In this document: positions 3,088 to 15,395 of the stretch, piece after piece
How positions within the stretch are numbered: the stretch's first letter is position 1
Layout: each line of letters begins with the position of its first letter
NCBI RefSeq assembly: GCF_000426625.1
Contig: NZ_KE384547.1
Span: forward strand, 2,223,159 to 2,287,158
DNA: 64,000 nt
From: Psychrilyobacter atlanticus DSM 19335
GTDB taxonomy: Bacteria > Fusobacteriota > Fusobacteriia > Fusobacteriales > Fusobacteriaceae
Direction of reading: 5' to 3'
Notes under the pieces: model-generated
Database searches by the model: none
The model's input: only the letters and a program-made list of their open reading frames with translations
What the model was told of the DNA's origin: nothing
Translations under genes and position numbers: made by a program

Positions 3088-3150
3088 GCTTTAACACCTT
3101 CTTTTAAAATAATTAAATTAATTCCAATGACACTTATATAAACATAATGT

Positions 3151-13332: not shown

Positions 13333-14082
13333 ATGGAAATTTTATTGATTGGATTAGGTATGTTTATCGCTGGATTTATAGACTCTATTGCTGGAGGCGG
13401 AGGTCTGATCAGTACTCCTACACTGTTATTAGTTGGTCTTCCCCCACACCTTGCCTTAGGAACAAATAAATTGGCTGCTTCTGCTGGAACAATGGTCAGC
13501 AGTCATGAATTTTTTAAAAGTAATAAATTAAATTTTAAATTACTTAAACTTATGATTCCCTTTGCATTTGTAGGAGCAGTTATTGGTGTAACTGCTTTAC
13601 AATTTATTACGCCTGATATTTTAGAGATGATAATTCCATTTATGATTTTTGGAGTAGCTATCTATACTGTTGTTTCTAAAAAAGTAGGAATGACTAATTC
13701 CTTTAATGGATTTACTCCTAAAAATAAATTTTTAGGTAAGGTTTTAACTTCTATATTAGGTTTTTATGATGGATTTTTTGGTCCCGGAACAGGAACATTT
13801 TTTATGTTTGGTTTAGTCAAAATCTTTAAATTTGATTTCACCGTTGCTACTGCTAATACTAAGGTTTTAAATTTAACTACCGGTATTGCAGCTCTACTTA
13901 CTTTTTTATACAATGGACAAGTAGACCTTAGATATGGTCTTATCTCCACTGTATTTATGATCTTAGGTTCTAAATTAGGATCTAAGATGGCTGTAAAAAA
14001 TGGAGCTAAATTTATAAAACCGATCTTTATCGTTATGTCTTTAGTAATGGCCAGCAAGATGGTTTATGGCATGGTTATCTAA
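13333..14082 (+). CDS. TauE/SafE (TSUP) family anion exporter
   Basis: 249 residues with about eight membrane helices. The N-terminal segment GFIDSIAGGGGLISTPTLLL and the repeated GFYDGFFGPGTGTFFMF are the two family signatures. TSUP proteins carry sulfite, sulfoacetate, taurine-derived anions or similar organosulfur anions across the inner membrane; the substrate here is unknown. The start follows TTATGGAGGTATT. It converges on the probable selenoprotein gene, with a shared terminator between them. Confidence 0.88.
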   Translation: MEILLIGLGMFIAGFIDSIAGGGGLISTPTLLLVGLPPHLALGTNKLAASAGTMVSSHEFFKSNKLNFKLLKLMIPFAFVGAVIGVTALQFITPDILEMIIPFMIFGVAIYTVVSKKVGMTNSFNGFTPKNKFLGKVLTSILGFYDGFFGPGTGTFFMFGLVKIFKFDFTVATANTKVLNLTTGIAALLTFLYNGQVDLRYGLISTVFMILGSKLGSKMAVKNGAKFIKPIFIVMSLVMASKMVYGMVI

Positions 14083-14102: not shown

Positions 14103-14140
14103 AAAAAAAAGACCTTTGAAATCTTCAAAGGTCTTTTTTA
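14103..14140. terminator. Bidirectional terminator
   Basis: AAAAGACCTTTGAA / TTCAAAGGTCTTTT with A-run left and T-run right; serves the TauE/SafE gene on plus and the DUF1858-type gene on minus. Confidence 0.8.
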
Positions 14141-14159: not shown

Positions 14160-14360
14160 TTACTTAGTCTCTTCGATTAATTTGTTCATTTCTTCGATTA
14201 CAACATCTGCATTTAATCCGTGTGACGCGATTCCTTCTCCTAAGCTCTCACCTGAGGCTACCATACAACCTACTCACCCAAGTCCGTATCTTTGGAATAC
14301 TTGAACGATTACTGGATACTGTTGTACAGCTTCTAATATGTTCATATCTTTATTTACCAT
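14160..14360 (-). CDS. DUF1858-type redox protein, probable selenoprotein (UxxC)
   Basis: Read through an in-frame TGA at 14276-14274, this is a 66-residue protein with a clean ATG, a strong Shine-Dalgarno sequence (AGGAGGAGTAAAA) and a TAA stop. Residues 1-28 (NILEAVQQYPVIVQVFQRYGLG) and 30-66 (VGCMVASGESLGEGIASHGL and onward) match the two halves of the DUF1858 / hybrid-cluster-associated redox-disulfide family, whose core motif is GLGCxGC. The TGA sits exactly on the first Cys, giving U29-V-G-C32. A SECIS-like hairpin follows at the right distance (see 14243-14259). Conventional gene calling would split or miss it. The alternative is a pseudogene with one nonsense mutation, which the intact downstream frame and hairpin argue against. 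Confidence 0.82.
14243..14259 (-). promoter_or_regulatory. Putative bacterial SECIS hairpin
   Basis: On the minus strand, AGCCTC-AGGT-GAGAGCT: a six-pair stem with one bulged A, closing an AGGT loop, beginning 14 bases after the UGA. The E. coli fdhF SECIS upper stem also starts about 11 bases after UGA, with a loop beginning AGGU and a bulge in the stem. SelB binding is inferred from this resemblance. Confidence 0.65.
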
Positions 14361-14435
14361 TTTTACTCCTCCTAAAATCAATATTATGTTCTCTTAATGT
14401 ATAAAGTATATATTATCATAGTAATCTTGTCAAGA

Positions 14436-15395
14436 TTAATTAACACTATTTAACAAATCATGAATCCTTACCATTCCTATTAATTTCTGCCCATCTAATA
14501 CAGGTAAAACTGAGATTTGACTTTCCCTATTTTCCATGAGCTCCAATGCATCTACAGCCATTTTTTCAGCTTCAATATAGGTGAATTTTGAGATCATAAT
14601 ATCCACAGCTTTATAGGTAAAAAACTCCTCTTTATTTCCCAATGCTCTCCTAATATCCCCTTCTGTTATTATTCCTGCCATCTTTTCATCTTCTAACACA
14701 CAGACAGCTCCTAATTTTTTCTTTGTCATAGTCACTAATATCTCATCTATATTGGTATCTTTTTCTACAACTGCAAGATCAGTTCCACTGTGCATTACAT
14801 CTTTTACCTTCATAAGGAGCCTTCTTCCTAAGCTTCCTCCCGGATGATACACAGCAAAGTTTTCTGGTTTAAAATTTCTGAGTTTAATAAGTACTGATGC
14901 TAAAGCATCTCCCATAACTATAGTCGCTGTAGTCGAACAAGTAGGAGCTATGTTCATAGGACAAGCTTCCCTCTCTACACCTATATCCAATATAGCATCA
15001 GATTGCACTCCTAATTTAGAATTTTTATTTCCAGTCATAGCTATTAATTTTGCACCTATTTTTTTTATAGACGGAATTATAGATACCACTTCATCACTGT
15101 TTCCTGAATTTGAGATAGCTATTACCACGTCTTCTCTATCTACCATCCCAAGGTCTCCATGAAGACCTTCAGCTGAATTCATAAACACTGTCAACGTTCC
15201 TGTAGAAGCCAGGGTTGCAGCTATTTTTTTCCCTACTATTCCAGATTTTCCGATTCCTGTAACAACAACCTTTCCTTTACAGTCCATGATCAGCTTAGCT
15301 GTTTTCTCTATCTCTTTTCCTATCTTATCTCTTACTTTTTTTAGTTCCTCTATTTCAATATCAAATATTTCCTGAGCATATTTTTTTATATCCAT
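14436..15395 (-). CDS. kdsD: D-arabinose-5-phosphate isomerase (SIS + two CBS)
   Basis: 319 residues: an N-terminal SIS domain (GKGKVVVTGIGKSGIVGKK type P-loop, ISNSGNSDEV, YHPGGSLGRRLL) and two C-terminal CBS domains from about residue 205. This is the KdsD/KpsF layout. It interconverts ribulose-5-phosphate and arabinose-5-phosphate, the first step to Kdo of lipopolysaccharide, which supports a Gram-negative envelope. It is a single gene. A capsule-specific KpsF role cannot be excluded, since no kds genes adjoin it. Confidence 0.93.
   Translation of the reverse strand: MDIKKYAQEIFDIEIEELKKVRDKIGKEIEKTAKLIMDCKGKVVVTGIGKSGIVGKKIAATLASTGTLTVFMNSAEGLHGDLGMVDREDVVIAISNSGNSDEVVSIIPSIKKIGAKLIAMTGNKNSKLGVQSDAILDIGVEREACPMNIAPTCSTTATIVMGDALASVLIKLRNFKPENFAVYHPGGSLGRRLLMKVKDVMHSGTDLAVVEKDTNIDEILVTMTKKKLGAVCVLEDEKMAGIITEGDIRRALGNKEEFFTYKAVDIMISKFTYIEAEKMAVDALELMENRESQISVLPVLDGQKLIGMVRIHDLLNSVN

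Follow-up and report, generated by a model that had tools for sequence, protein, structure and literature searches.

The 64,000-nucleotide stretch of DNA from the marine bacterium Psychrilyobacter analysed here (the window) carries on its minus strand a 66-codon gene for a small redox protein that contains a single in-frame TGA, raising the question of whether this codon ends translation or is read as selenocysteine (Sec). The earlier note had described an intact gene with a strong Shine-Dalgarno sequence, and both the translation and the sequence AGGAGGAG confirmed this description. With TGA read as U, the frame from 14360 to 14160 runs unbroken through MVNKDMNILEAVQQYPVIVQVFQRYGLGUVGCMVASGESLGEGIASHGLNADVVIEEMNKLIEETK, encloses the one TGA and stops at TAA; across the predicted Sec29 the peptide reads YGLG-U-VGCMVASGESLGEGIASHG. 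A gene caller taking TGA as a stop would end the protein at residue 28. A purine-rich Shine-Dalgarno sequence is found in the orthologues of the gene too. The gene has its own near-perfect promoter, called by consensus match alone in a region where chance would be expected to yield sites of lower score, and it is separated from the convergent neighbour by a terminator-like palindrome; together with the Shine-Dalgarno sequence, these signals suggest that the gene is monocistronic. We take the upstream neighbour to be of the KdsD/KpsF type from the features of the SIS-CBS family. In the whole window, three frames behind a Shine-Dalgarno sequence are interrupted by TGA, and the DUF1858 gene, the one of the three that was compared against family libraries, is the one shown to match a family. 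As judged from its sequence and those of its relatives, the 66-residue protein almost certainly carries a TGA-coded Sec at the first Cys position of its CxxC motif (Table 1).

Table 1. Features at the DUF1858 locus, in window positions
Feature	Position	Strand	Basis or remark
DUF1858/TIGR03980 (hybrid-cluster-protein-associated redox disulfide domain) gene, 66 codons	14160..14360	minus	predicted Sec at residue 29
In-frame TGA, predicted Sec codon 29, first position of UxxC	14274..14276	minus	TGA in 8 genomes, Cys in other orthologues
Codon 32, TGT (Cys), second position of UxxC, presumed resolving residue	14265..14267	minus	translation
SECIS-like hairpin AGCCUC-AGGU-GAG(A)GCU	14243..14259	minus	starts 14 nt after TGA; apical loop 20 nt after UGA
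Shine-Dalgarno sequence AGGAGGAG	14366..14373	minus	from sequence
Sigma-70-type promoter TTGACA-17-TATACT	14405..14433	minus	11/12 consensus matches
Terminator-like palindrome AAAGACCTTTGAA-GAT-TTCAAAGGTCTTT with T run	14108..14136		from sequence; absent from automatic scan
Sulfite-exporter-type gene, convergent with DUF1858 gene	13333-14082	plus	
KdsD/KpsF-type arabinose-5-phosphate isomerase homologue (presumed), 319 aa, upstream neighbour	14436..15395	minus	ORF

The protein matched PF08984 (DUF1858) at E 9.4e-14, scoring 51.7 bits when U was treated as C and 46.1 bits when the genomic sequence was read through the stop (Pfam gathering cut-off 32.2). It also matched TIGR03980 (prismane_assoc) with 76.5 bits over positions 1-58, the full 58, against a curated cut-off of 44.95. 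Both alignments span the TGA, and the TGA recurs in seven other genomes, indicating that it is not a chance stop. Among proteins of solved structure, the sequence matched 2K53 (Clostridium thermocellum A3DK08; E 1.1e-8) and 2K5E (E 2e-13), NMR structures of DUF1858-type proteins that carry Cys. A weak resemblance to the RIC/ScdA_N iron-sulfur repair proteins (PF04405 and TIGR03652; E 0.004 and 0.092) lay below the curated cut-offs, and membership of that family was rejected. Two further DUF1858 proteins are encoded in the genome: L001, of about 405 aa, whose domain is without CxxC (GFKGLDN), and L003, of about 90 aa, whose CxxC motif reads GLKCSSC.

We searched for the DUF1858 gene in 61 genomes of the family and 98 of the Fusobacteriota. 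An internal TGA was present in seven of the eight genomes of Psychrilyobacter and, outside this genus, in G049 of genus g12, eight genomes in all; the remaining members listed from the 98 Fusobacteriota genomes were free of internal stops. In all eight the TGA falls on the first Cys column, giving GLGUVGC (GLGUIGC in G049), which bears out the earlier note's placement of the codon on the first Cys of GLGCxGC. The Cys forms carry TGT or TGC at this column; they include G056 within Psychrilyobacter, G047 and G048 within g12, and members of other genera. The Cys32 column is invariant across all orthologues read. In every Psychrilyobacter genome and in genera g5, g6, g9, g12 and g14, the DUF1858 gene adjoins one for a KdsD-type isomerase, and this common neighbour identifies the DUF1858 genes at those loci as orthologues, not paralogues. 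The other orthologues checked have Cys at the TGA column, and most adjoin kdsD. An in-frame UGA that is conserved across species and lies where homologues have Cys is the pattern by which bacterial selenoproteins are recognised, and the alternation of Cys and TGA that the earlier note had proposed to look for was seen among orthologues in precisely this column, for the most part where the locus is conserved.

TGA ordinarily ends translation, and the codon could instead be a nonsense mutation, leaving a pseudogene or the gene of a truncated 28-residue peptide, which would be without the active site. However, the same TGA occurs in eight separate assemblies, within an intact frame behind a good Shine-Dalgarno sequence, and the codon of the relatives at this place is Cys rather than a random residue. 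Comparison with the gene of G057 gave 17 identical, 7 synonymous and 3 changed codons 5′ of the TGA, and 16 identical, 8 synonymous and 3 changed codons 3′ of it, the hairpin codons set apart. The mostly synonymous differences on both sides argue against decay of the frame, which the earlier note had named as a sign against its reading and of which we saw none in the relatives. A nonsense mutation thus has only a very slight chance of being the explanation.

The 3.54 Mb genome, whose contig C2 holds the window, encodes tRNA-Sec, SelA, SelB and SelD. The tRNA-Sec scored 65.7 bits, above the cut-off, and ARAGORN, too, called it a tRNA-SeC (anticodon tca). The three protein genes selA (590 bits), selB (369 bits) and selD (386 bits) form a cluster at C3:149198-153522. 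The selA, selB, selC and selD set expected of a genome that makes bacterial selenoproteins, on which the earlier note had made its reading depend, is hence complete. The selD gene is itself TGA-coded, with an in-frame TGA in GGGUTSK (L021, from about position 1435) and a hairpin, AUAGGAC-CGGGU-GUUCUAU, that begins 9 nt after this TGA. On the 3′ side of selB lie two ORFs (L012, positions 3530 and 4273) that we take to be YedF-like and DUF3343-like and that fit a selenium gene cluster. Both types have been listed as selenium-related (PMC9312934). The UGA might still be read as Trp or Cys, or be passed by leaky readthrough, without Sec, and the rarity of TGA as a stop in the AT-rich window, where 2 of 42 long ORFs end with it, would suit such a reading. 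However, the column in which the codon lies is one of redox Cys, not of Trp, the genome has the complete Sec machinery, a TGA is used in selD as well, and other genes do end in TGA, so that we regard decoding without Sec as highly improbable. The selA gene was found in all Psychrilyobacter genomes bar G057, a 76%-complete assembly. G056 has it as well, so that loss of the machinery does not account for the Cys form there. The selA of two genus g5 genomes is split, carries several stops and is apparently decayed (G018:C8:413482-414815 and G027:C1:615186-616513); the DUF1858 genes of these two genomes have no internal stop.

The hairpin that follows the TGA, likened to a SECIS element in the earlier note, has an AGGU loop and a 6-pair stem with one bulged A. 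The published bSECIS model calls for a loop of 3-9 nt with G in the first two positions, a stem of 4-16 pairs, a spacing of 16-37 nt and an MFE of at most -7.5 kcal/mol (PMC13188914). Loop, stem and the 20-nt spacing are all within these rules, whereas the energy of the hairpin alone, -4.3 to -5.7 kcal/mol, is short of the threshold. A 63-nt stretch including the UGA reached -11.9 kcal/mol with the hairpin contained, no better than shuffles, and whole-strand folding of the 50-79 nt that follow the UGA likewise gave no gain over shuffles. Random synonymous recodings gave a local fold at least as good about 10% of the time, and in some folds of the Psychrilyobacter sequence the hairpin competes with another stem. 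Since folding energy fails to beat shuffles, the case for a SECIS rests on conservation and fit to the model. All eight Sec forms, G049 included, share the same 15-nt hairpin core GCCTCAGGTGAGAGC, while 13 of the 35 other same-amino-acid codons of G049 differ from those of the window; a shuffle of invariant and variable codon columns gave P 0.026 for the invariance of the hairpin codons. In the Cys form of G056, three synonymous changes take the hairpin from -5.4 to -0.6 kcal/mol. The CGGGU loop of the selD hairpin in the same genome is of a type comparable to the AGGU loop. The hairpin of the earlier note is present in the sequence, conserved and in keeping with the loop and spacing rules, if thermodynamically weak; it is probably, though not provably, the SECIS, an assignment that its modest energy makes less certain than that of the Sec codon.

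The protein could also be a selenoprotein in which SelB reads another structure, or an element longer than this hairpin. The weak energy, the competing folds and a shuffle P of only 0.026 leave room for such an element, and bacterial elements outside the consensus model are acknowledged (PMC13188914). Nevertheless, the AGGU loop and the spacing fit the consensus, the loop type resembles that of the selD hairpin, and the core is identical in the Sec form of another genus, so that we consider a different element unlikely, if well within reason, and keep the hairpin as the candidate SECIS.

The Sec and Cys forms could be placed relative to each other in a tree of the neighbouring KdsD, as the tree of the 66-codon gene itself resolves little. 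G056, with Cys, falls inside Psychrilyobacter as sister to the Sec-bearing G055 (support 91/94), and G057, with Sec, branches first, an arrangement that points to reversion from Sec to Cys in G056. The Sec-bearing G049 groups with G047 and G048, both of which have Cys. By a hand count, at least three changes between Sec and Cys would be needed, with moderate support. The Cys form of G047 (L061, genus g12, minus-strand motif near 3090), which uses TGC, retains the exact 15-nt core GCCTCAGGTGAGAGC, and its intact hairpin looks like a SECIS relic.

The AlphaFold2 model of the protein is a small helical bundle (pLDDT 92.9) with the same fold as 2K53 (TM 0.79). In the model, residue 29 lies just ahead of helix 3 (residues 30-35) and Cys32 in the first turn of this helix. 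The attacking and resolving residues of CxxC redox sites usually lie just before a helix and in its first turn, respectively. Sec29 would accordingly be placed as the attacking residue and Cys32 as the resolving one, and the protein most likely cycles between a selenol/thiol form and an intramolecular U29-C32 selenenylsulfide. In the anaerobic cytosol it would then most likely hand on electrons, perhaps to hybrid-cluster proteins or on their behalf. Consistently, the co-occurrence with a hybrid-cluster protein that the name of TIGR03980 implies was found here, with three hcp genes in the genome itself and hcp matches in all eight Psychrilyobacter genomes, seven of them over the cut-off. Neither an hcp nor a Sec gene adjoins the DUF1858 gene at this locus, so it is the family name and co-occurrence that suggest the link to Hcp. 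In G055, one of the hcp copies gives two separate matches (G055:C1:11798-13431), the second with several stops, probably through a frameshift or an assembly error.

The second small CxxC protein of the genome (L003) brings up another role for the UGA, as mainly a selenium-dependent switch that would restrict synthesis of the complete protein to times of selenium supply, with this Cys paralogue, at C3:68568, covering when selenium is absent. However, the paralogue scores 39.6 bits for TIGR03980, below 44.95, and seems to belong to another subfamily, which makes a switch quite improbable. We hold with high confidence to a small DUF1858/TIGR03980 selenoprotein, in which the UGA would be decoded as Sec by SelA, SelD, SelB and tRNA-Sec, the hairpin 20 nt downstream would assist this decoding, and U29 and C32 would form the redox pair.

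The earlier note was unsure whether a Sec form of this family had been described. One has been predicted, the selenoprotein family "DUF1858 domain-containing protein" with the motif CxxU and the representative WP_012065717.1 (PMC9312934 Table 1; PMC13188914 Table 1), but its Sec position is opposite to that found here. The name DUF1858 is absent from the main text of the 2008 and 2016 papers that these reviews cite, and no fusobacterial DUF1858 selenoprotein is named in the literature searched, mostly without subscription papers. Among the matches listed by our own search of 391 Clostridia were at least three DUF1858 genes with a TGA (L112 in G241, L113 in G083 and L114 in G322); these three all read GMGCVGUPSAQAE, which is CxxU with Sec at the second Cys. 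The description of the known form as CxxU is based on the two reviews and these three loci. A pattern scan of the 391 Clostridia found no UxxC form in the clostridial branch, returning two chance hits. When we scanned the contigs of 84,980 species for GxGUxGC[MIL]xA, 28 loci were recovered, of which five are DUF1858 genes, all from Fusobacteriaceae; the remaining loci are chance frames, and the same scan of viral contigs gave chance hits alone. Within these searches, the predicted UxxC form is found in Fusobacteriaceae only.

By a published rule, proteins of one domain that carry Sec at different sites count as separate subfamilies (PMC9312934). The Psychrilyobacter protein does not have the Sec at the second Cys that defines the published CxxU subfamily, and the Fusobacteriaceae UxxC form adds a new Sec-site variant to a selenoprotein family that had been predicted before, but catalogued only as CxxU, and extends it into the Fusobacteriota. 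We lean towards a history in which Sec entered the CxxC domain independently, at the second Cys in Clostridia and at the first in Fusobacteriaceae, where repeated recent gain and loss would have left the decayed hairpin of the G056 Cys reversion and the intact SECIS relic of G047. Sec and Cys orthologues at one locus, with the Sec machinery mostly kept, offer a natural test of Sec at the attacking versus the resolving CxxC position and of the way in which a SECIS element arises and decays, and selenium provides a handle on the function of a widespread small redox domain. The only DUF1858 protein studied experimentally in the literature searched, DrpB of Thermus, is larger and is needed for the control and maturation of nitrate respiration (PMC6282519). 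The Cys forms of TIGR03980 share length and motif with the Psychrilyobacter protein and, in Fusobacteriaceae, often the same locus adjoining kdsD, but have Cys where it has Sec. The catalogued CxxU family shares with it the PF08984 domain and a single Sec in a CxxC redox motif, and the three clostridial proteins agree with the catalogued description as small stand-alone proteins with CxxU. However, Sec occupies the second Cys position in the catalogued family and the first in all eight Fusobacteriaceae proteins, and the motif context also differs, being GMGC.GCPSAQ in the clostridial proteins and GLGC.GCM[VI]A in Fusobacteriaceae. It is these mirror-image Sec positions, CxxU and UxxC, together with the recent switching between Sec and Cys, that set the Fusobacteriaceae proteins apart.
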